Assembly (NCBI GenBank): GCA_903926075.1
Contig: CAIYHQ010000115.1
Span: 1-36,821 of the forward strand
Length of the DNA: 36,821 nucleotides
From: an uncultured Methanomicrobiales archaeon
GTDB taxonomy: Archaea; Halobacteriota; Methanomicrobia; Methanomicrobiales; Methanospirillaceae
Direction of reading: 5' to 3'
Shown: piece after piece, positions 3,234-36,694 of the stretch
Numbering within the stretch: the first letter of the stretch is position 1
Layout of the letters: every line of letters begins with the position of its first letter
The notes under the pieces: generated by a model
What the model saw: the letters and a program-made list of their open reading frames with translations, nothing else
Databases searched by the model: none
Told to the model about the DNA's origin: nothing
Made by a program: the position numbers and the translations under genes

Positions 3234-4091
3234 ATGAGACTGTTTTTCTTTACAGGAATTATCTGCCTCGTTTTTATATTGGCAATAACCAGTTCGGCAA
3301 TACAAACTGATTCAAAAACGCTAATCAATTCATCTTTAAAAATTGTGAGCACGAACAATACAGTTGTCCCCCAAACCGGAGGTGCAACACAGCTTCTCAT
3401 GAAAAACATATGGAACCTTAAATCAGTCATGAAAAACGGGAAAACCAAGAATCCAGTTTTAGGTACAACTATAAACGCTGTTTTTTTAAAGGACGGAAAT
3501 CTTAATGGAAATGCCGGTTGTAACAATTATATTGGAACATATAAAATCACTGGCAACAAAATTACAATAGGTCAGGTCGGTTCTACGTTGATGTTTTGCT
3601 CTGAACCAAAAGGAGTCATGGAACAGGAAACACTGTATACAAGTATGCTCACGAAGGTTTCAACGTTTTCAGTCACAGAATCGAGCCTTTCACTCGCCGA
3701 TAGCACCGGAAAAAATAAACTAAACTTTGAGAAATATACCCCACCTACTCTATCCGGTTCATGGGTACTTGATTCAATTGGTGCGAATAATACGGTAAGT
3801 TCAGTCATTAAAGGATCAAATATAACTGCGTTATTTTCATCTGATGGCAATTTGACCGGATCAGCTGGCTGCAACCACTATAATGCCAATTTCCAGACGA
3901 AAGACGATAATCTCACGATATCACCCGTCATATCGACCCGGATGTACTGTTCAGAACCAAAGGGAGTCATGGAACAAGAAACAACATACCTAAGTAATCT
4001 GGAGAAAGTTAAAAGATATACAATTGCGAAAAATACGTTGGAACTCATGAATAAAGATGGAAAGGCACTGCTGTTTTATCTCCCTCCATAA
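3234..4091 (+). CDS. Secreted protein with two META (DUF306/HslJ-like) domains
   Basis: The protein has 285 residues with an N-terminal hydrophobic signal sequence (about residues 1-22). Two homologous META domains follow, at about residues 60-165 and 175-283. Each carries the hallmark pattern of Gly-Asn-rich strand, AGCN and CSEPKGVMEQE, so the domains clearly arose by internal duplication. META/HslJ domains are found in secreted or envelope proteins linked in bacteria to stress and novobiocin resistance; no enzymatic activity is established. A TATA-like TTTTTATAC lies about 26 bases before the ATG, which suggests a leaderless transcript. No operon partner is evident. Confidence 0.85.
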   Translation: MRLFFFTGIICLVFILAITSSAIQTDSKTLINSSLKIVSTNNTVVPQTGGATQLLMKNIWNLKSVMKNGKTKNPVLGTTINAVFLKDGNLNGNAGCNNYIGTYKITGNKITIGQVGSTLMFCSEPKGVMEQETLYTSMLTKVSTFSVTESSLSLADSTGKNKLNFEKYTPPTLSGSWVLDSIGANNTVSSVIKGSNITALFSSDGNLTGSAGCNHYNANFQTKDDNLTISPVISTRMYCSEPKGVMEQETTYLSNLEKVKRYTIAKNTLELMNKDGKALLFYLPP

Positions 4092-16351: not shown

Positions 16352-16365
16352 TTCACAATTGTGAT
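16352..16365. promoter_or_regulatory. Palindromic operator, copy 1 (one mismatch)
   Basis: TTCACAATTGTGAT, 51 bp before the winged-helix gene (minus strand). It lies exactly 84 bp from the second copy in front of cysK, or eight helical turns at 10.5 bp per turn. Confidence 0.75.
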
Positions 16366-16435: not shown

Positions 16436-16449
16436 TTCACAATTGTGAA
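16436..16449. promoter_or_regulatory. Palindromic operator, copy 2 (exact)
   Basis: TTCACAATTGTGAA between the cysK TATA box and the ATG at 16459, covering the expected transcription start. This position fits a repressor site. Confidence 0.85.
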
Positions 16450-16458
16450 CTAGATAGC

Positions 16459-17394
16459 ATGGCAAAAATATACTCTTCAATTATTGAAACAATTGGAAAT
16501 ACACCTCTTGTAAGACTAAACAGGCTTACACAGGGGATTGGGGCAACCGTTGTAGTGAAACTTGAATCAGCTAATCCACTTTCAAGCGTAAAAGATCGGA
16601 TTGGTCTAGCTATGATTGAAGCAGCCGAAAGGTCCGGGAGGGTTAATGAAAAAACCATTTTTATTGAACCAACTAGTGGGAATACCGGAATTGCTCTTGC
16701 TTTTGTCTGTGCTGCAAAAGGATACCGCCTGAAACTTGTCATGCCTGAATCATTCAGTCTCGAACGAAGAAGAGTACTGAGAGCTCTTGGAGCAGAGCTT
16801 ATTCTCTCACCTGCTGCTGAAGGAATACCAGGAGCTATAAAAATTGCAGAAGAACTCGCGTCAACCCAGTCTGATCATATAATTCTTCAACAGTTCAAGA
16901 ATCAGGCAAACCCGGATATACACAGGAGAACTACTGCCCTTGAAATATGGAATGATACCGATGGAAAAGTTGACATCTTTGTTGCCGGAGTAGGTACCGG
17001 TGGAACAATCACTGGCGTTTCAGCCGTTATAAAACAGAAAAAACCTGAATTTAAAGCAATTGCAGTAGAGGCAGCAGCTTCACCCGTCCTCTCTGGAGGA
17101 AAGATGGGTCCCCATAAAATACAGGGAATTAGTGCTGGTTTTGTACCAGAAGTGCTAAAACTTGACTATGTTGACGAAATATTTCAGGTTTCAAATGACG
17201 ATGCAATTGGGACTGCAAGAAAACTAGCAATAGAAGAGGGTTTGTTCTGTGGAATTTCTTCCGGTGCGGCTGCATTTGCTGCATTGGAGATAGCAAAAAG
17301 ACCTGACAATAGAGGAAAGCTCATTGTCTGTCTTCTTCCTGACACAGGAGAACGATATCTAAGCACTGAACTGTTCGAGATAAAGGAGGTATAA
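16459..17394 (+). CDS. cysK: Cysteine synthase (O-acetylserine sulfhydrylase)
   Basis: The enzyme makes cysteine from O-acetylserine and sulfide with PLP. The 311-residue product has the usual length and start ([23 protein letters not shown]). The PLP lysine is in [11 protein letters not shown]. The substrate loop is TSGNTGIAL, the phosphate-binding Gly-rich loop is [10 protein letters not shown], and CGISSGAA follows near the C terminus. An upstream ATG (16402) would overlap the TATA box and the operator, so 16459 is the start. cysE follows after 2 bp. A bacterial-type cysK/cysE pair is known in several methanogens, probably by transfer. Here it coexists with the tRNA-dependent cysteine route encoded further right. 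Confidence 0.96.
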
Positions 17395-17396
17395 AA

Positions 17397-18173
17397 ATGA
17401 CATCTATCAGGGAGGACATCGAGACGGTATTTCGTAAAGACCCTGCAGCACGGAGTATAATCGAAGTAATTACGTGTTATCCCGGCCTTCATGCAGTCTG
17501 GTTGCATTGGATTGCTCACTTGTTTTGGAACCATGACATGAAGTTCGTAGCAAGGGCCATTTCCCATATAAATCGATTTTTAACAGGAATTGAGATACAT
17601 CCAGGAGCAAAAATAGGGAAGCGTCTATTTATTGATCATGGTATGGGCGTCCTTATTGGAGAAACTGCTGAAATCGGGAACGATGTACTTATCTATAAGG
17701 GGGTAACGCTTGGCGGAACCAGTCTTGAAAAAAGAAAGAGGCATCCTACTATTGGCGATGATGTCATAATAGGAACCGGGGCCACAATTCTTGGACCGGT
17801 TATAATAGGGAAAGGTGCGAAAATAGGTGCAGGTTCTGTTGTTGTTCACCCGGTCCCCGAAGGAGCCACGATTATTGGTGTTCCAGGTCGTATTGCAGAT
17901 TATGAGCCAACAGGCGGCCTACAGACTCCTGAACGTGACAATCTTCCTGACCCGGTCCAGAAAATAATAACCAGTTTGCTTGTACGACAGAATGAACTTG
18001 AGGAAAGAATCCAATTAATGGAGAAAATGTTAAATGAAAATTCTTCACACGACATAGAGAAAGGTATTGATAAGACAGAGGGAATTAGTCGTATCCTATC
18101 AAATCCGTGTTCAGAAGATGAATATTCTGATATAATTAACCTGGAAAATGAAGTCATTTGTGAATTAACATAG
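17397..18173 (+). CDS. cysE: Serine O-acetyltransferase
   Basis: The enzyme transfers acetyl from acetyl-CoA to serine, supplying O-acetylserine to CysK. The 258-residue product has the helical N-terminal domain, then the left-handed beta-helix of hexapeptide repeats (about residues 62-165). The signature [18 protein letters not shown] carries the catalytic His. [22 protein letters not shown] and the closing GVPGRI are also present. A C-terminal extension of about 80 residues (coiled-coil-like [15 protein letters not shown], then acidic) makes it longer than usual EpsC-type enzymes. A strong ribosome site (AAAGGAGGT, 17382-17390) overlaps the end of cysK, so the two form an operon under the palindromic operators. 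Confidence 0.95.
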
Positions 18174-18182
18174 TTTTTTTTT
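18174..18182. terminator. Oligo-T terminator after cysE
   Basis: T9 directly after the cysE stop, at the end of the cysK-cysE operon and at the junction with the convergent DUF1894 gene. Confidence 0.55.
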
Positions 18183-18474
18183 AACGACCCTTTTTTGTAT
18201 TAAGTTTAAGTGACCTTAGACGTTTGGCTTCTTCTGCATCCTCAACTTTGAGGAGGAAGGTACCATAACATGGTTTTGTAAATGGAAAGACGATAAAATC
18301 ATGATCCATCCCGATTGCAATCGGCGGGATACCAATTATATGTTTCTCAAACAACCTGAAACCAGGGTCTACATAGTAAATTTCTGTAAAACCGGCTTCA
18401 ACATATTCACGGGATTCCTTAAAACTTGATCCCTGGAGAATTACCTCTTTATCCAGGTCTTCCACACATGTCAT
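18181..18474 (-). CDS. DUF1894 family protein
   Basis: 97 residues matching the small methanogen family DUF1894. Characteristic stretches are SFKESREYVEAGFTEIYYVDPGFRLFEKHIIGIPPIAIG and FPFTKPCYGTFLLKVED, with one conserved Cys in KPCYG. The function is not known. The start overlaps the stop of the upstream DUF1890 gene by 4 bp, so the pair is translationally coupled. A decayed second copy of the same pair lies at 32.0-32.6 kb. Both pairs have the palindromic operator in front, which ties them to sulfur or cysteine control. Confidence 0.85.
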   Translation of the reverse strand: MTCVEDLDKEVILQGSSFKESREYVEAGFTEIYYVDPGFRLFEKHIIGIPPIAIGMDHDFIVFPFTKPCYGTFLLKVEDAEEAKRLRSLKLNTKKGR

Positions 18475-18953
18475 AGAAATACCTCGTCAAGCTTTTTCTT
18501 TAATTCGACAGGATTATGAACTGTTTTTTCAACAACCATTTCACATTGAAAATCAACAAGTTTCTTAAGATCTTCTGCATTCCGGCCAATTATAACGAGT
18601 ATCAACCTTGAGGCATGCAGATATCGGATAGTTGTTGCATAGGTAATTCCGGCATCATTATGGGCAAAGGCAATGGCTGTATCAAAGGAAATTTTCTTTT
18701 CTGCAAGATCACCGATACAATGGTCAAGGTCTATCATCCTACCCATATAATGTCTTTCCGGGTCTGAAACCCTTGCAAGTTTTATTACTGAAGGATTTGC
18801 TGCAACTGTAACTGAATATCCTTTCTTCACAAGAATATACGAAAGGTATAGAGAGATTCCCATCTGAACCGGCACTTCAGGACAGCCAAGAAAGAGAATG
18901 ACTTCATTTTTTTCCTTTTGTTCGTTCATATTATTTCCCGAGTTATTTATCAT
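18471..18953 (-). CDS. DUF1890 family protein (DsrE-like fold likely)
   Basis: 160 residues of the methanogen family DUF1890. Features are an N-terminal strand plus LGCPEVPVQMGISLYLSYILVKKGYSVTVAANPSVIKLARVSDP, a central DLDHCIGDLAEKK, and AFAHNDAGITYATT. The alternating strand and helix pattern, with an early Cys in GCPEVP, recalls DsrE/DsrF-like sulfur-handling proteins, but that link is my inference. The preferred start may be the second Met (18929). The palindrome at 19030-19043 lies between this gene and a divergent regulator. Confidence 0.85.
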   Translation of the reverse strand: MINNSGNNMNEQKEKNEVILFLGCPEVPVQMGISLYLSYILVKKGYSVTVAANPSVIKLARVSDPERHYMGRMIDLDHCIGDLAEKKISFDTAIAFAHNDAGITYATTIRYLHASRLILVIIGRNAEDLKKLVDFQCEMVVEKTVHNPVELKKKLDEVFL

Positions 18954-19029
18954 GTTGTCAGATGCATTGACATTAAAGGTTTCCTATTGAAGTAACAGAT
19001 TTATGAATGCAAATGTACGGATTTGCACG

Positions 19030-19043
19030 TTCACAATTGTGAA
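19030..19043. promoter_or_regulatory. Palindromic operator, copy 3 (exact)
   Basis: TTCACAATTGTGAA in the 122-bp divergent region between the DUF1890 gene and the membrane-anchored regulator. A TATA-like GATTTATGAA lies about 33 bp upstream of its centre in the plus direction, so one site may control both transcripts. Confidence 0.85.
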
Positions 19044-19075: not shown

Positions 19076-19909
19076 ATGTTATGGGAGGCGCTTTCTCTCT
19101 GTGTAATTGCATTTATAGTGATGATTCCGGTTAATAGTGTTATCTCAGGCACAACTAATGCGTCTTCACAATGTACTAATTTACAAAATCCTGTTTTACC
19201 TGTGAAAAATAGTGGATTTCCCTCATCCTGTCATTGCCCGCCAGCCAGCCGAACATCAGGCGAAGGACAATGTTATGGAGGAGGCATATGCCAGGCAGCA
19301 CTTCCGGCTGATGGACGTCTTTTATCGATGATAAGGAGACGTATATCACTCCATGGTTACAGGAGGCTTTACAGTAAAAATCTTCTAAACCATGAAAAAA
19401 GGGAATTAATCTTTAAAGCAATTAAGGGAAATCCAGGGATTTCTACTGACATGCTTATTCAGCTGACGGAAATCAACCCTCACACGCTACGGTATCACAC
19501 AGATCAACTGGTTACAATGAAAATTATCAGGAAAAAAAGAGTAAACGGTACAGACCATTATTTTGCAAGGATTTCAGAAATTTCTGAAGAAGCAATGGTA
19601 CCGCTTGCATATAAAAATCACAATTCAACCGCAAGAACCCTTCAGGTTATCTCTGAAAAACCAGGAATTAACAGAAGTGATCTGGCATCTACCCTAGGAA
19701 TATCAGGCCCTTCAGTTACCCGCCAGCTTAATCAGCTCATTCTAGAGAAATGCGTAAGAGGGAAGAGGGAAGGAAAGTTTATTCGTTATTATATTAGCGA
19801 CCCCCTCCTCCTCTATCATAATAATCCAATCGTAGGCAATAGAGAACAAAGTCGAACATCTACTGAATGTTACAGTACCCGAATTGAGAACGAAGCGGCA
19901 TTAACATAA
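19076..19909 (+). CDS. Membrane-anchored, Cys-rich double winged-helix regulator
   Basis: 277 residues. A hydrophobic segment (about 5-24) can act as a signal anchor. It is followed by a Cys cluster (C33, C52, C54, C66, C72) in a Gly/Ser/Pro-rich linker, then two winged-helix domains. The first is about 107-170 ([28 protein letters not shown]). The second is about 180-250 ([27 protein letters not shown]). Paired ArsR/MarR-like winged helices behind an N-terminal membrane segment occur in Methanomicrobia. A Cys cluster in this position could sense sulfide or redox state or bind a metal; this is inference. It is divergent from the DUF1890 gene over a shared palindrome, and a nadA remnant follows 7 bp downstream. 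Confidence 0.8.
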
Positions 19910-19916
19910 AACGATT

Positions 19917-20402
19917 ATGAAAGACGCAATAATTCTCGCACATAATTATACACGACCTGAAATCCAGGATATGGCGGATTTCGTAGGTGATTCTCTTGAA
20001 CTTGCTAGAAAGATTGGTTCATTTGATGAAGAACTCATAATTTTTGCCGGTGTCGATTTCATGGCTGAGGCTGACGCAATTTTATATCCTGAAAAGAAAA
20101 TTGTGCATCCGGTACCTGCTTCAAGGTGCCCGATGGCAGCTGATATCACAGAAATTGAAGTAAAAAAAAGCTAAGAAACGTTATCCAAAAGCCGCAGTTG
20201 TCTCCTATATCAACACACCTGCATCAGTAAAAGGAGTTTCGGATATAATCTGCACTTCCTCAAATGCAGTTCAAATCGTTGAGAGTCTTAATAATGAGCA
20301 GATTATCTTCACTCCAGACAGAAATCTTGCCGGTTATGTTGCAGCGAGGACCAAAAAAGTAATAATTCCAATACCGGCTATGGGATGTTGCCCGGAATCA
20401 AA
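19917..20402 (+). pseudogene. nadA: Quinolinate synthase (NadA) remnant
   Basis: NadA is a [4Fe-4S] enzyme of NAD synthesis. The remnant starts with [29 protein letters not shown], the canonical N-terminal block, but lacks the usual preceding residues. An A8 run (20162-20169) shifts the frame after ITEIEVKKS. With seven A the protein would continue [19 protein letters not shown]...TSSNAV...FTPDRNLAGYVA. It breaks off at PIPAMGCCP, where the next bases belong to a truncated copy of the tRNA-Cys gene (GCCCGG shared by both). About the C-terminal half of the enzyme, with the remaining cluster cysteines, is missing. It follows the membrane-anchored regulator by 7 bp. Confidence 0.85.
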
Positions 20403-20538
20403 CCGGGATGTAGTTGATCTGCAGTCAACCGCGTAGCCATTCCGCCACACTGGCACAATCAATCACATCTGTGAATTGTCCTATTACATGTTGTTCACTG
20501 TAATAATAGTAAATTGAGGTTCAGGCTGTAATTGCCGG
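20390..20538. repeat. Duplicated tRNA-Cys segment, truncated copy
   Basis: About 149 bp matching 29289-29438. The match covers the tRNA body without its 3' end plus about 84 bp of 5' flank (TGTGAATTGTCCTATTACAT and GTAATTGCCGG conserved), including the tRNA promoter region. It ends sharply at ATTGCCGG on the right. Confidence 0.85.
20391..20454 (-). pseudogene. Truncated tRNA-Cys (GCA) copy
   Basis: Nearly identical to the intact tRNA-Cys at 29282-29353 from the 5' end through the T arm (anticodon loop CTGCAGA). It lacks the 3' acceptor strand, which is replaced by nadA sequence that cannot pair with GCCAGTG. The invariant T-loop C56 is changed to T (TTTGATT in place of TTCGATT). It should not form a functional tRNA. 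Confidence 0.88.
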
Positions 20539-20623: not shown

Positions 20624-20637
20624 ATCACAATTGTGAA
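20624..20637. promoter_or_regulatory. Palindromic operator, copy 4 (one mismatch)
   Basis: ATCACAATTGTGAA, 17 bp before the ATG of the small membrane protein. A TATA-like CTAATAAATCA lies about 35 bp upstream of its centre. Confidence 0.78.
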
Positions 20638-29281: not shown

Positions 29282-29353
29282 AGCCAGCGCCCGGAATCGA
29301 ACCGGGATGTAGTTGATCTGCAGTCAACCGCGTAGCCATTCCGCCACACTGGC
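29282..29353 (-). tRNA. tRNA-Cys (anticodon GCA)
   Basis: 72 nt including the discriminator. The acceptor stem GCCAGTG/CGCTGGC pairs fully (one G-T). The D arm has TGG, the anticodon stem TTGA/TCAA carries loop CTGCAGA with GCA, and the T arm is CCCGGTTCGATTCCGGG. The discriminator is U73, the main identity base for Cys. CCA is not encoded. This is the substrate for SepRS/SepCysS-type or CysRS charging, and it lies in the same island as SepCysS. A truncated duplicate is fused to nadA at 20.4 kb. Confidence 0.95.
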
Positions 29354-29438
29354 ATGAAGACTTCACTCATGTGAATTGTCCTATTACATGTTGATCATTG
29401 GAATAATAGTATATTCAGGTTCAGGCAGTAATTGCCGG
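29289..29438. repeat. Duplicated tRNA-Cys segment, intact copy
   Basis: About 150 bp matching 20390-20538: the tRNA body and its promoter-side flank. The conserved flank probably holds the tRNA promoter. Confidence 0.85.
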
Positions 29439-30114: not shown

Positions 30115-30426
30115 ATGAAATCAAGAGTTATTATAGTAGGGATCCTCTTCGCACTTCTCTTATGCGGTTTCGCACTTGCAGATTGTGGGAATTCCCAATG
30201 TCAATCAGGGAAAAATTGTCCATCAGATTGTGGAAAGAATCAAATAACAGGGCAAGGATGTGGTTGTGTTTTCGCCAACTCAACTGTCACAACTTCTGTT
30301 AGTTCCGATGCAAGCAATAAACTTTCAACATATGGATGTAATTGTAAAGGAACTGTTTCTACAGGAAAACAGTGTACCTGCGGATCAAAAACGACAACCA
30401 GTACATCCTGTGGCTGCAAGCGTTAA
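30115..30426 (+). CDS. Small secreted CxC-rich protein
   Basis: 103 residues with a clear signal peptide (about 1-22, ending ALA) and a GGAG ribosome site 7 bases before the ATG. The mature part has 12 cysteines, eight of them in four CxC pairs (CGC, CNC, CTC, CGC) spaced by Ser/Thr/Gly-rich linkers. No other domain is seen. The CxC pattern suggests metal binding or disulfide cross-links, as in metallothionein-like or cell-wall Cys-rich proteins. I recognise no named family. It lies within the sulfur island but has no operator copy directly in front. Confidence 0.75.
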   Translation: MKSRVIIVGILFALLLCGFALADCGNSQCQSGKNCPSDCGKNQITGQGCGCVFANSTVTTSVSSDASNKLSTYGCNCKGTVSTGKQCTCGSKTTTSTSCGCKR

Positions 30427-30511: not shown

Positions 30512-31317
30512 TCAAATGTTCAATAGGACTTCATCCATGCTACCACTCCTGTAACCGGCAAGGTCGAGCGTTATATAGGAGATTCCAACATCTTTAAAAT
30601 GGTGGATTATATCTTCACGGATGGCCAGAATCTTTTCAAAGTCTTCAGGAATGGCCTCTATCCTCGACATCCTTCCGTGCAACCGGACCCTTAATTGTAT
30701 AATCCCATTTTCTGCAAGAAAAGCCTCAGACAATTCAATTATCTGCAGATTGGTAAGGGTAATCTCATCCCAGTAAGGCAATCGTGATGCGAGACATGCT
30801 GCTGATGGTTTCTTCCATACAATAAGTCCGCGTTCTCTTGCAATTTGTCGAATCTCTTCCTTGGTAATTCCTGCCATAATAAAGGGATGAATTATTCCTT
30901 CTTCGGTTGCTGCTATAAGTCTTGTCCGGTGTTCACTCATATCCGAAACATTTATTTCGTCGGCAATGCATTTCAGGCCAAATTTTTCTGCTGTTTGCCT
31001 TAGGTAAATTGCTGATATTTTTTACATATATAACAGCGTTCAGGTGGATTTTTCCGGAGGCCTTCATGTTCCATGTGTGGAACAGTGATGATCTCAAGGT
31101 TTATTCCAAGGTCCAGAGCAGCCTTTTTTGAATCTTTGAAAACAGCCCTTGTAACGAGAGGGCTATCAAGAAAGACCGAATATCTCTTCATTCCGAGCAC
31201 ATCATGAGCGATTACTGCAAGAAGGGTGCTATCTACGCCTCCCGAGTAAGAGACGAGCATCGACCCGCAGTCTCTAATAATCTCGCGTAAAATTTCTTTT
31301 TTATTAATGATTGACAT
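30512..31317 (-). pseudogene. larE: LarE-type ATP-dependent sulfur transferase, frameshifted
   Basis: LarE-like proteins of the PP-loop superfamily adenylate a substrate and insert sulfur. The N-terminal part (start 31317) has the PP-loop SYSGGVDSTLLA and continues to RCYICKK. A six-base T run on the plus strand (31018-31023) then shifts the frame. With one more base the sequence would continue KISAIYLRQTAEKFGLKCIADEINVSDMSEH and join smoothly to the second frame, which carries KPSAACLASRLPYWDEIT. The active-site Cys of LarE is in such an ACLASR motif. Only one base is missing, so this could be a sequencing error. It starts 17 bp after the XRE regulator gene, in a probable operon. Confidence 0.85.
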
Positions 31318-31333
31318 TTTTCACCAAAATTTA

Positions 31334-31654
31334 TTAAAGAGAACTTTTGCATTGGTTCTCATCAGTCTCACGGAGTTGCTGGCAGATTGTACATATCCGT
31401 TTAACTAAATTTACTTGTTTTTTTTCTTTTAAATCCTCTGCAAGTTGTTTGATCAACATTTTAACTTTATTCTCAAATTCAATCCGGTACCCGCGTTTCC
31501 CTGATATGTATTGAGAAACTGCAGACGGTGCTATTTCAAGCATTCGTGCCGCTTCGACTTGTGAAACTCGGCACTTCACAAGCTCAACAGCTATAGCAGC
31601 TCTAATTGCGGGTAATATATCCCATAATACTCTTTCACATGGAGCTTCCACCAT
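31334..31654 (-). CDS. XRE-like helix-turn-helix regulator with C-terminal cysteines
   Basis: 106 residues. The helix-turn-helix is about residues 28-55 (KCRVSQVEAARMLEIAPSAVSQYISGKRG), as in the archaeal family COG2522. The C-terminal part has a CxxC (CTIC, about 87-90) and another Cys at about 101, with two more at 6 and 28. This set could bind an iron-sulfur cluster or sense thiols; that is inference. It leads the operon with larE and has an exact palindrome 45 bp upstream of its start, so autoregulation is plausible. It is a prime candidate for the protein that binds the palindrome. Confidence 0.85.
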   Translation of the reverse strand: MVEAPCERVLWDILPAIRAAIAVELVKCRVSQVEAARMLEIAPSAVSQYISGKRGYRIEFENKVKMLIKQLAEDLKEKKQVNLVKRICTICQQLRETDENQCKSSL

Positions 31655-31698: not shown

Positions 31699-31712
31699 TT
31701 CACAATTGTGAA
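31699..31712. promoter_or_regulatory. Palindromic operator, copy 6 (exact)
   Basis: TTCACAATTGTGAA, 45 bp before the XRE-larE operon (minus strand). An A/T-rich TATTTTTATTTT lies about 22 bp upstream of its centre in that direction. Confidence 0.85.
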
Positions 31713-32001: not shown

Positions 32002-32572
32002 TCATTTCTTTCGGGCTCTTACCCTTTCAATCTCTTCAAGAGATTCAATCTTTAGAAGAAATGTTCCATAACAGGGTTTTGTGAAAGGAAAGATGATTGA
32101 ATCGCCATCAATCCCAATGGCAATAGGGGGGATACTATAATGTATTTTTCAAACATCCTGTAACCTGGCTCAACAAAGTGGACTTCCTTATAATGAGCTT
32201 CTACATATTCTCTGCATTCCTTCCAAAGATTATTACAATGAGCCGCCCACTGATGATGTATGCGGCAGTCGCTGCATAAGAAATTCCTGCATCATTATGA
32301 GCGAAAACAATACAGAGGCCAGGGTTAATTTTTTTCTCAACAAGATCACCGATTGTCCGGTCCAGGTTGAGAACTTTTTTTACATACACGCGATCTGGAT
32401 CTGATACCCTTAATAATTTGATTACTGCCTCGTTTCCTGCTACTGATACATTAAGTCCCTCTTTTGTTAGTTTGTATGCAGTATAAATCCCTATACCCAT
32501 TTGTACAGGTACTTCGAGGCATCCCAGGAGGAGTAATGCTTCATTGATTTGAATGGATTTTTGATCATTCAT
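32002..32572 (-). pseudogene. Fused and frameshifted second DUF1890/DUF1894 pair
   Basis: The first part (32572 to about 32210) is a DUF1890 protein like the one at 18.5-18.9 kb (LGCLEVPVQMGIGIYTAYKL, RVSDPDRVYVKKVLNLD, FAHNDAGISYAAT). At IIFGRNAE it breaks off and the sequence passes directly into DUF1894 (CREYVEAHYKEVHFVEPGYRMFEKYI) in another frame. About 50 residues of DUF1890 and 20 of DUF1894 have been deleted. A further shift near 32140 leads to SIPPIAIGIDGDSIIFPFTKPCYGTFLLK and the natural stop at 32002-32004. The exact palindrome upstream (32691) is preserved. Confidence 0.88.
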
Positions 32573-32690: not shown

Positions 32691-32704
32691 TTCACAATTG
32701 TGAA
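32691..32704. promoter_or_regulatory. Palindromic operator, copy 7 (exact)
   Basis: TTCACAATTGTGAA, 118 bp before the decayed DUF1890 gene (minus strand). A TATA-like ATTTTTTATA lies about 38 bp upstream of its centre in that direction. The operator survives although the gene is broken. Confidence 0.82.
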
Positions 32705-32930: not shown

Positions 32931-33677
32931 TCAAACAATTGTGTCAGCATTTGAACAGGCACCGCAATCAGGCCTGCGTTTAACCTGAATCTCATGAAAC
33001 TCCATGTATTCACCATCATAAATGATCATACGGTTAATAAGTGGTTTACCAACTCCAGTCAGAATCTTAATAGCTTCAGTAACCTGCAAAGTCCCAATAA
33101 CGCCTGGAGTAGCACCAAGGACCGGAAAAACTTCGGATGGAGGAGCTTCAGGAACAAGACACTCAAGACACGGTGTTTTTCCAGGTATTATAGTTGTAAT
33201 TCTTCCTTCAAGTCCCCAGACAGACCCATGTATGAATGGAATATTATGTGTTAATGCTGCTTTATTTAGAAGATACCGGGTAGGATAGTTGTCCATCGCA
33301 TCGATGATAATATCTGCCTCTTTTGTAAGAGAAAAAACATTACCCGGGTCAATTTTTAACTGAACCGGAGTGACCTAAATTGTAGGGTTCATAGCAGAAA
33401 GTTTTCCTTTGGCACTTTCTACTTTGTACCTCTCCACATCCTTATCCCAGTGAAGGATCTGACGGTTTAAATTAGAGAGATCATCAACATCCATATCAGC
33501 TATAATTAAGTGGCCGACTCCGGCTACTGCAAGATATGTTGCAATAGGACTCCCTAGTCCCCCGGCACCAGCAATAAATACTGTAGAGTTTTTCAATTTT
33601 TGTTGCCCGGTTTCACCAAATCCTCTGATGAGAATCTGTCGATGGTACCGCTTTCTATCATAATCAGTAAGTATCAT
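32931..33677 (-). pseudogene. MoeB/ThiF/HesA-type E1-like adenylyltransferase with in-frame TAG
   Basis: Such proteins adenylate the C-terminal Gly of ThiS/MoaD-type sulfur carriers, or a Cys-pathway carrier. The 248-codon frame is continuous except for one TAG (33375-33377), where relatives have Glu (NPTI-E-VTP). The N-terminal part has the nucleotide loop GAGGLGSPIATYLA, DMDVDDLSNLNRQ and the preceding Arg/Gln segment. The rest has DAMDNYPTR, two zinc CxxC pairs (CLEC, CGAC) and GATPGVIGTLQVTEAIK. A single G-to-T change would explain the stop. TAG ends several intact genes here, so pyrrolysine readthrough is unlikely. It is divergent from SepCysS, with an operator between. Confidence 0.85.
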
Positions 33678-33813: not shown

Positions 33814-33827
33814 TTCACAATTGTGAA
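33814..33827. promoter_or_regulatory. Palindromic operator, copy 8 (exact)
   Basis: TTCACAATTGTGAA in the divergent region between moeB and SepCysS, 83 bp before the preferred SepCysS start. Confidence 0.85.
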
Positions 33828-33909
33828 TATACGCATTCCTCTCATATAAGGATTTATGAGAGAGTAAAATCTTGTATATACCAGCATGTCATTTGGCCGC
33901 GGAGTAACT

Positions 33910-35274
33910 ATGAGTATAAGAGTTCAAAAAACATTTGAAGCGCTCTTCGCACTTGAAGAGATTAGGGGCCTGTTTCGGAGTTCTCTCCCCACAGGTTTCA
34001 ACGCCGGAGATGATGCGGCATTCCATGAGAAGATTACCGAACTTAAGTCAATTATTGCTGATCTTGAAGCCGGAACCGGAACACCAAAAGTAACAAAAAT
34101 TGCCGGTAATATCGATATCAGGACTAGAGAAGAGGAAAGTCTCAATATCCAACCAATCCAGGCAGCTGGCCGTCTTACAACAGAAGCCAGAAAGGCAATC
34201 ATAGCCTATGGTGACGGGTACTCGACCTGTGATGCATGCCGGAAACCATTCCGCCTTGATAAAATTTCAAAGCCCGGAATAGCTGACTTCCATGAAGATC
34301 TCGCAAAATGGCTCAATATGGACTATGCACGTGTTGTACCAGGTGCACGAAGGGGATTCCAGGCAGTGACCTCGACTCTCGTTAAAAAAAATGACCCGGT
34401 TATTGTATCTGCACTTGCTCATTACACAGAGTTTCTCTCTATAGAAAACGCCGGAGGAATTGTAAAAGAAGTCCCGCTTAATGAGAAAAACCTTGTTACT
34501 GCTGAATCTACTGCACAAAAGATTGAGGATGTTAAGGAAGAAACGAAAAAAATGCCAGTCCTTATCATGATCGACCATTTTGACTACCAGTTTGCAAATG
34601 AACACGAGATTGCAGAAATTGGAAAGGTTGCAAAACAATATGACATTCCATTCCTTTACAACGGTGCTTATACAGTTGGTGTTCAGCCGGTCGATGGTAA
34701 AAGGATAGGAGCTGATTTCGTTGTTGGTTCCGGACACAAGAGCATGGCATCTGTTGCTCCATCCGGAGTACTTGCAATGACAGAAGAATGGGCGCCAAAG
34801 GCATTGCGAACAACTGCAATGGTAGGAGATATAACAAAGCGGAAATTCGGTATAAAAGAAGTTGAGATGCTTGGTTGTACTCTGATGGGAGGTACTTTGC
34901 TCTCTATGATGGCATCATTCCCTGCAGTAAAAGAAAGGACAAAACACTGGGATGAGGAAGTAAAAAAATCAAATTTCTTCATAGAAAGGCTTTTAGCGAT
35001 TACTGGGAGCAAGGTGCTCTCTGAGTACCCGAGAAAGCACACACTCACGAAAGTAGATACAACCGGAAGCTTCGACACTGTTGCAAAGACTCACAAACGT
35101 AAAGGCTTCTACTTTAGTGATGAACTCTCAAAAAGCGGTATAGTCGGAGAATTTGCAGGAGCTACACGGACCTGGAAGCTCAATACATTTGGTCTTTCCT
35201 GGGACCAGATAAATTACCTTGCCAATACATTTACAGACATTGCAGAAAAATACGGACTTCCTGTATCGAAATGA
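33910..35274 (+). CDS. pscS: O-phosphoseryl-tRNA(Cys):Cys-tRNA synthase (SepCysS)
   Basis: A PLP enzyme that converts Sep-tRNA(Cys), made by SepRS, to Cys-tRNA(Cys) with a sulfur donor. This is the tRNA-dependent cysteine route of methanogens. The product has 454 residues from ATG 33910, which has GGAG 5 bases upstream; ATG 33886 lacks such a site. The core begins GNIDIRTREEESLNIQPIQAAGRLT with YGDGYSTCDAC, and the PLP Lys is in GSGHKSMA. Family members are about 380-390 residues. The extra N-terminal ~65 (FEALFALEEIRGLFRSSLP) matches what has been described as the SepCysSn/SepCysE-like docking region for SepRS and tRNA. metY follows 13 bp later in an operon. Confidence 0.95.
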   Translation: MSIRVQKTFEALFALEEIRGLFRSSLPTGFNAGDDAAFHEKITELKSIIADLEAGTGTPKVTKIAGNIDIRTREEESLNIQPIQAAGRLTTEARKAIIAYGDGYSTCDACRKPFRLDKISKPGIADFHEDLAKWLNMDYARVVPGARRGFQAVTSTLVKKNDPVIVSALAHYTEFLSIENAGGIVKEVPLNEKNLVTAESTAQKIEDVKEETKKMPVLIMIDHFDYQFANEHEIAEIGKVAKQYDIPFLYNGAYTVGVQPVDGKRIGADFVVGSGHKSMASVAPSGVLAMTEEWAPKALRTTAMVGDITKRKFGIKEVEMLGCTLMGGTLLSMMASFPAVKERTKHWDEEVKKSNFFIERLLAITGSKVLSEYPRKHTLTKVDTTGSFDTVAKTHKRKGFYFSDELSKSGIVGEFAGATRTWKLNTFGLSWDQINYLANTFTDIAEKYGLPVSK

Positions 35275-35287
35275 ATTAGGATAAAAC

Positions 35288-36601
35288 GTGAAAATTATGA
35301 CTGAAAAGACTAAATTTAATCTTGGTACATTGTCCCTTCATGCCGGACAGGAACCTGACCCGACAACTGGTGCAAGGGCAGTCCCTATATACCAGACAAC
35401 ATCGTATGTGTTTAAAAGTGCAGATCATGCCGCAAACCTGTTTGGGTTGCGCGAACTGGGGAATATCTATACCCGCCTCATGAACCCAACGACCGACGTG
35501 TTTGAGAAACGCGTTGCGGCAATTGAACGTGGAACAAGTGCTATTGCCACTGCTTCAGGACAAGCTGCAATAACATATGCACTGTTAAATGTTACGCGTC
35601 CCGGGGACGACATTGTCTCTGCGAATAACCTGTATGGTGGAACTTACGAACTCTTTAACCACACATTTCCCAAACTCGGAAGAAAGGTTATCTTTGTTGA
35701 CTCAACAAAGCCTGAAGAGATAAGAAAAGCGATTACACCAAAGACCCGGGCTGTTTATGCTGAAACTATAGGAAATCCAAAACTGGATGTCCCTGATTTT
35801 GAGGCGATAGGAATGATTGCGCATGAAGCGGGTATCCCGCTTGTTGTTGACAATACAACAGGCGTCGGACTCGTCCGGCCTATTGAATTCGGTGCTGATA
35901 TCGTCGTCCTTTCTGCGACAAAATATATCGGCGGTCATGGTAACTCAATCGGCGGTGTTATAGTAGATTCAGGAAATTTCAAGTGGAATAACGGTAAATT
36001 CCCTGAATTTACAGATGCAGATCCCAGTTACCACGGACTAAAGTACTGGGATACATTTGGAAACTTTGCAAGCTTTGGAAATGTTGCGTTTACATTTAAA
36101 ATTCGTGTCTCACTAATGAGAGACACCGGGGCAGTTTTAAGCCCATTCAATGCCTGGCTTTTCCTCCTCGGTCTTGAGACACTCCACCTCCGTGTTCCCA
36201 GACACTCGGAGAACGCCCTGAAAGTAGCCCTGTTTCTCAAGAACCATCCGAATGTTGCCTGGGTGAACTATACAGGACTTCCGGATCATCCGAGTTACAA
36301 TCTGGCCCAGAAATATCTGTCCGGAGGATATGGTCCGCTTGTAGGGTTTGGAGTTAAAGGAAGCGAAAAAGAGACGAAAAAGTTTATTGACAGCCTTAAC
36401 CTCTTCTCTAACCTCGCAAATATCGGAGACTCCAAGAGCCTCGTTATACATCCCGCTACAACAACACATCAGCAACTCACACCCGAAGAACAGCGAGCAA
36501 CAGGGGTTACACCTGACTTTGTGAGGCTCTCAATAGGCACGGAGGATATTGAGGATATTCTTGGTGACCTTGATCAGGCCCTGAAAGCAGCGGTGCAGTA
36601 A
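35288..36601 (+). CDS. metY: O-acetylhomoserine (or O-acetylserine) sulfhydrylase
   Basis: A PLP enzyme of the Cys/Met metabolism family that joins sulfide to O-acetylhomoserine to give homocysteine, the precursor of methionine. The 437-residue product has the family length. Motifs are [41 protein letters not shown], the PLP Lys in [16 protein letters not shown] and the C-terminal [19 protein letters not shown]. The GTG at 35288 has AGGA 6 bases upstream; the ATG at 35297 would be too far from it. It is 13 bp after SepCysS and so shares its promoter and operator, linking methionine and cysteine sulfur supply. Confidence 0.93.
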
Positions 36602-36680: not shown

Positions 36681-36694
36681 TTCACAATTGTGAA
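36681..36694. promoter_or_regulatory. Palindromic operator, copy 9 (exact)
   Basis: TTCACAATTGTGAA at the right edge, with a TATA-like ATTATATT about 36 bp upstream of its centre in the plus direction. The controlled gene probably lies to the right, outside the window. Confidence 0.8.

Follow-up and report, generated by a model that had tools for sequence, protein, structure and literature searches.

A membrane-anchored tandem winged-helix protein and a shared operator of a candidate sulfur and Fe-S regulon in Methanomicrobiales

The closest described relatives of the protein reported herein, which we call REG, are archaeal tandem-wHTH regulators with N-terminal membrane segments (HTH_HVO_0163_N, PF24266), a group that we take to be the same as COG3398. 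Like these proteins, REG carries two winged helices at its C terminus and membrane-spanning sequence at its N terminus, and has many paralogues in Methanomicrobiales. It differs from them by its single membrane segment, its Cys-rich stalk, a match to PF24266 that falls below the cut-off, and its membership in a sulfur regulon. Metalloregulators of the ArsR/SmtB type (SmtB, CadC, SqrR) superpose on winged helix 2 of REG, which also has a weak match to NF033788. However, REG has two winged helices and a membrane anchor, and its Cys residues lie outside the winged-helix fold. Membrane-bound one-component regulators of the ToxR/CadC type likewise tether a winged helix to the membrane, whereas in REG the order is reversed, with the anchor first and the DNA-binding domains last, and the winged helices are in tandem. 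The layout of REG is a variant within a known archaeal regulator family.

A second comparison concerns the promoter of REG. In regulons of the IscR/SufR/CymR type, one operator is common to genes for cysteine synthesis, Fe-S assembly and the regulator itself. The regulon described below resembles these systems in that a single operator, TTCACAATTGTGAA, is present at genes of the same three kinds, but the operator sequence is different and the small HTH regulator is a different, archaeal one. Our searches of the open-access literature returned no mention of the operator in a sulfur-regulon context, nothing relevant on COG3398, DUF1890 or COG2522, and no described counterpart of an operator and small HTH regulator system, and the regulon behind TTCACAATTGTGAA is apparently undescribed.

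Architecture of the REG protein

The window examined is the whole 36,821-nucleotide stretch of a contig from an uncultured Methanomicrobiales archaeon. REG and its parts are as follows.

19076 to 19909, plus strand: REG, a predicted 277-aa membrane-anchored tandem winged-helix protein (translation, Pfam, AlphaFold, homologues)
19088 to 19144, plus strand: N-terminal hydrophobic anchor, residues 5-23 (hydropathy; model helix 2-15; near-universal among homologues)
19172 to 19291, plus strand: Cys-rich stalk with C33, C52, C54, C66 and C72 (translation; Cys enrichment; predicted disordered)
19373 to 19567, plus strand: winged helix 1, residues 100-164 (AlphaFold pLDDT mostly above 88; weak HTH_HVO_0163_N)
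19622 to 19795, plus strand: winged helix 2, residues 183-240 (AlphaFold pLDDT mostly above 88; HTH_24/MarR_2; nearest single-domain folds ArsR/SmtB-type)

A first-pass annotation of the sequence had described an anchor followed by a Cys cluster and two winged helices. This layout is real, as the open reading frame, its length and the five Cys residues were all recovered. The anchor has a Kyte-Doolittle score of 2.45 and contains a sixth N-terminal Cys (C9). AlphaFold and Pfam agree on the two winged helices. Residues 185-229 match HTH_24/MarR_2 above the cut-off, PF24266 falls just below its cut-off on residues 107-165 (27.8 vs 31), and NF033788 (ArsR/SmtB) falls far below (32.8 vs 55). The superpositions of winged helix 2 on SmtB, CadC and SqrR give TM-scores of about 0.6-0.7 on the target, and no solved structure matches the whole of REG by sequence. 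The Cys region is modelled as disordered (pLDDT 35-49), with the stretch from residue 18 to 97 mostly below 50. Five Cys residues in the 57-aa stalk are expected with a probability of about 4e-5, given that proteins encoded in the window average 0.65% Cys.

Homologues of REG are present in 81 of the 108 genomes of its family. Nearly all of them have an N-terminal hydrophobic segment, and therefore the anchor is real and a mis-set start, which the first-pass annotation had feared, is ruled out. The exact first residues could still suffer from a frameshift, because several genes of the contig are frameshifted.

The REG promoter and an operator shared with sulfur genes

REG is transcribed divergently from genes for a DUF1890 and a DUF1894 protein over an exact palindrome, as the earlier annotation had reported; the palindrome is 14 bp long and lies 46 nt upstream of the REG ATG.

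19030 to 19043: operator TTCACAATTGTGAA in the REG/DUF1890 divergent promoter (near-identical and in the same place in Methanospirillum genomes)
18471 to 18953, minus strand: DUF1890 protein, divergent neighbour of REG (Pfam PF09001; homologue of MTH0777, PDB 1kjn)
18181 to 18474, minus strand: DUF1894 protein (Pfam PF08979)

The same divergent arrangement is found in three genomes of the Methanospirillum group (G112, G113 and G117), and a further genome (G023) retains REG and the operator with no DUF1890 match. Four genomes of the Methanospirillum group carry the operator at about -46 relative to REG, as TTCACAATTGTGAA or TTCACAATCGTGAA, and two further genomes have GTCACGATTGTGAA at the corresponding place. 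The operator was not found upstream of the REG genes of Methanoregula-type relatives. A second inverted repeat, TGCAAAT-N6-ATTTGCA, occupies 19008-19027; considered as a possible binding site of REG itself, it has just one other exact copy in the genome.

The palindrome is concentrated on this contig. Eight exact copies of TTCACAATTGTGAA are present in the 3.14 Mb genome, six of them on the 36.8-kb contig, and when one mismatch is allowed the window holds nine copies where 0.02 are expected from shuffled sequences. Besides the REG promoter, the copies and associated genes are as follows.

16352 to 16365: operator copy with one mismatch, upstream of cysK
16436 to 16449: operator copy immediately before cysK, whose likely start is 16459
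16459 to 17394, plus strand: cysK, cysteine synthase A, regulon gene (NCBIfam TIGR01139 above cut-off)
17397 to 18173, plus strand: cysE, serine O-acetyltransferase (NCBIfam TIGR01172 above cut-off)
20624 to 20637: operator copy with one mismatch, 16 nt ahead of DUF6803, for which 20654 is the likely start; the arrangement recurs in locus L074
29526 to 29539: operator copy with one mismatch, beyond the second tRNA-Cys gene
31699 to 31712: operator upstream of the gene for a small HTH protein, HTHs
32691 to 32704: operator upstream of a second, truncated DUF1890 gene
33814 to 33827: operator between ThiF and SepCysS-metY
33886 to 35274, plus strand: SepCysS, regulon gene (NCBIfam TIGR02539 above cut-off)
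35288 to 36601, plus strand: metY, O-acetylhomoserine sulfhydrylase (NCBIfam TIGR01326 above cut-off)
36681 to 36694: operator downstream of metY; the next gene is off the contig

Across the whole genome of this organism, operator-associated genes comprise cysK-cysE, REG/DUF1890, DUF6803, HTHs, the second DUF1890, SepCysS-metY with ThiF, LarE, iscS-iscU-metX, a SufS-like desulfurase, DUF169 and an ABC protein. Among the other genera, the genes found repeatedly at such sites are SepCysS-metY, iscS-iscU, sufS, LarE, ThiF, nadA, metX, DUF1890 and HTHs. The form TTCACRATYGTGAA was found in 56 of the 108 family genomes. Of the 135 genomes of the class that are at least 90% complete, 54 contain it, whereas a reversed control gave zero matches in every genome of either set. 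Because the sites precede cysK, SepCysS-metY, iscS-iscU, sufS, LarE, ThiF and nadA, TTCACAATTGTGAA is, as judged from genome comparisons, a shared operator that marks a sulfur, cysteine and Fe-S regulon across the order Methanomicrobiales. That the palindrome in the REG promoter is this shared operator is the most valuable result of the analysis. The connection of REG to sulfur that had been suggested earlier is real, and with an operator in common with sulfur genes it is much stronger than was visible from the sequence of the locus.

Several additional features of these loci were observed. Directly after REG, nadA (19917-20174 to about 20430) has a frameshift close to an A-run, and its terminal part reaches into a tRNA-Cys gene, making it either a pseudogene or an assembly error. 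Two near-identical tRNA-Cys genes (20382-20538 and 29282-29438) lie 8.9 kb apart with about 76 nt of common flank, which suggests that a duplication took place or that the intervening segment was inserted. LarE (30512-31317, minus strand), the second DUF1890 gene (32201-32572, minus strand) and ThiF (32931-33677, minus strand), all of them sulfur genes, are each split or truncated, and an intact LarE is present on contig C70. The open reading frame at 30115-30426 (plus strand) encodes a 103-aa protein, predicted to be exported, that has 14 Cys residues and no homologue in the 107 other family genomes. In another locus (L131, contig C37), two operator-like sites, at 3466 and 3590, precede a gene for an atwA-like ABC protein, behind which lie what seem to be methanogenesis-marker genes, a hint that the activation of methyl-CoM reductase might be linked to sulfur status.

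Candidate binders of the operator

The first-pass annotation proposed that REG itself reads the palindrome at 19030. Under this proposal, REG would repress or activate both DUF1890-DUF1894 and its own gene, and Cys chemistry near the membrane would set its binding. Several genomes, from two genera, have the palindrome at about -46 relative to REG, which is consistent with such a role, as is the presence of the operator in all 11 genomes with a Cys-rich REG (p 6e-4 in a test that ignores shared ancestry). Moreover, the winged helices of REG are MarR-like, a type that commonly binds palindromes. However, the operator is order-wide and is distributed independently of REG: the odds ratio for its co-occurrence with any REG homologue is 1.0, again ignoring shared ancestry, and it is present in genomes that have no REG homologue, such as G062 (99% complete), G087, G098 and G104. 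The Methanoregula-type REG genes without an upstream operator, and the fact that most operator targets are not near REG, argue in the same direction. Co-occurrence thus disfavours REG as the palindrome binder, and we judge this role to be quite improbable.

A different small HTH gene does track the operator.

31334 to 31654, minus strand: HTHs, 106-aa HTH protein, likely operator-binding regulator (operator upstream, co-occurrence)

HTHs has a C-terminal CxxC...C motif and matched no NCBIfam family. The operator lies 42-54 nt upstream of the start of the HTHs match in 23 of the 23 genomes where both are listed. Matches to HTHs (E below 1e-20) accompany the operator in 48 genomes, occur in 16 where the exact operator was not found, and are missing from 8 genomes with the operator and 36 without it (Fisher p 5e-9, a value that ignores shared ancestry). 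HTHs therefore likely binds TTCACAATTGTGAA, and is likely the master regulator of the order-wide sulfur and Fe-S regulon. The identity of the binder is less sure in Methanospirillum, because the HTHs copies there show no more than 53-57% identity and the Methanospirillum HTHs loci that were read lack the operator. REG has the features of a target, namely an operator in its promoter that is conserved in relatives, and is more likely a member of the regulon than the operator binder.

Some SepCysS or sulfur loci carry another small winged-helix gene, of about 66-80 aa, beside the operator (L135 2144-2380, minus strand; L139 3388-3588, plus strand; L074 3404-3604, plus strand). Its product is an alternative candidate operator binder.

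Stalk, membrane topology and gene partner of REG

Three N-terminal layouts occur among REG homologues, with the winged helices common to all. Type a has two membrane segments. Type b has one segment, a Gly/Ser/Pro-rich stalk of 140-460 aa and a short Pro-containing hydrophobic patch. Type c, to which REG belongs, has one segment, a stalk of 60-87 aa enriched either in Cys or in His, Met and Gly, and a basic amphipathic segment. Neither type b nor type c has a convincing second membrane segment; in REG, the apparent insertion energy before HGYRR is 11.7, compared with 0.2-2.9 in two-segment members. The winged-helix motifs, including that of the recognition helix, are conserved across stalk types.

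A Cys-rich stalk is carried by 11 of the 45 proteins on the winged-helix tree, which are REG, seven Methanospirillum proteins, one protein in G003, and second copies in G025 and G033. The character requires four changes on this tree (shuffled mean 9.9) and is therefore labile; one separate clade is well supported (98/93). The Methanospirillum stalks have CC, CxC and C..C elements in common, but not in the same columns. The nearest sequence to REG (L002, 41%) has one stalk Cys and thus no Cys-rich stalk, so that the grouping of REG with Methanospirillum is based on synteny and the operator more than on close sequence similarity. Conservation of the five Cys residues, on which the first-pass annotation had staked its sensing proposal, is therefore absent among the closest sequence relatives, but clustered Cys residues at unfixed positions are retained in the synteny-matched ones. 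Two other readings of the family were rejected. One homologue (L006) might have a lipobox, but by eye this is lost in its close relative (L032). A link to metal export was considered from a P-type ATPase near some Methanospirillum paralogues, but the one that was tested is a general cation ATPase adjoining a REG paralogue without the Cys cluster.

Relatives of the Methanoregula type provide a further clue, as their REG gene adjoins a gene for a small exported protein (SEP). SEP is a predicted exported protein of 100-200 aa that contains Cys, is rich in Gly and Gln, and has no Pfam match; many members carry a C-terminal DGSCGxC. Examples are:

L073, 5408 to 5857, minus strand: SEP
L074, 2539 to 2925, plus strand: SEP
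L085-L092: SEP, upstream of REG
L111-L122: SEP

Next to type c REG genes, SEP is divergent; next to those of type b, the two genes share a strand and SEP is the downstream one. The two genes are adjacent in 28 of the 34 genomes that have SEP. In G025 and G033 both the REG stalk and its partner are Cys-rich (7 and 13 Cys). No SEP homologue was detected by similarity in the genome that holds the window, and thus none beside REG, and the exported 14-Cys protein of the window is unrelated to SEP. The layout of REG had been called one-component; since its relatives are accompanied by a small exported protein, it is perhaps not truly so.

These observations bear on what the stalk might do. It could be a disordered tether in which Cys residues are incidental, with REG sensing something else or only localising DNA at the membrane. 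The variation of stalks joined to unchanged winged helices, in length (about 50-460 aa) and in composition (Cys-rich in some, Gly/Ser/Pro-rich in others), would fit this explanation, together with the unconserved Cys columns and the predicted disorder. We nevertheless consider it unlikely, as evident by Cys enrichment far above chance in separate genomes, the recurrence of a CC...CxC...C pattern in Methanospirillum, and the very Cys-rich exported partner in two genomes. On the explanation that we favour, the stalk most probably takes up a soft metal or undergoes a change in thiol state, which would alter the occupancy of the winged helices at putative local targets.

Topology presents a related difficulty. 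The charge flanking the anchor leans toward N-in/C-out in most REG homologues, and with one segment this orientation would export the winged helices. The N-terminal segment might then be an export signal that places the stalk, and perhaps all of REG, outside the cell, where the winged helices would have a non-transcriptional function. The lack of a second segment in types b and c and the genetic pairing with SEP are compatible with export. On the other hand, DNA-recognition motifs remain conserved, the same domain would come to lie inside the cell in relatives that have two membrane segments, and REG of the window has no positive residue before its anchor, which allows N-out/C-in. We regard export as most improbable, and the conserved recognition-helix motif leads us to infer that the winged helices are cytoplasmic.

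Taken as a whole, the explanation that we favour, and to which we would give an even chance, is that REG is an anchored regulator within the sulfur and Fe-S regulon, that HTHs is the operator binder, and that the Cys-rich stalk participates in sensing. REG would be a transcription regulator tethered to the membrane, from a family that has expanded in Methanomicrobiales, and would consist of an N-terminal membrane helix, a linker that is Cys-rich here and in Methanospirillum, a basic amphipathic segment and two DNA-binding winged helices. Since the promoter that it shares with DUF1890-DUF1894 carries TTCACAATTGTGAA, most likely bound by HTHs, REG would be made when this regulon is on. A broader and more tentative possibility is a two-tier thiol/metal circuit of Methanomicrobiales, wherein HTHs acting at TTCACAATTGTGAA switches on REG, whose Cys-rich stalk would respond, at the membrane, to metal or to the state of thiols, while REG of sister lineages pairs with and controls SEP.

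Methanogens need large amounts of sulfur, cysteine and Fe-S, and to our knowledge their sensing of this supply is poorly known. The pairing of REG relatives with SEP is a conserved gene linkage without a family assignment. A candidate regulon that extends through an order of methanogens is delimited by the operator and comes with a candidate regulator, HTHs, and REG may represent a second candidate sensor inside the sulfur regulon.
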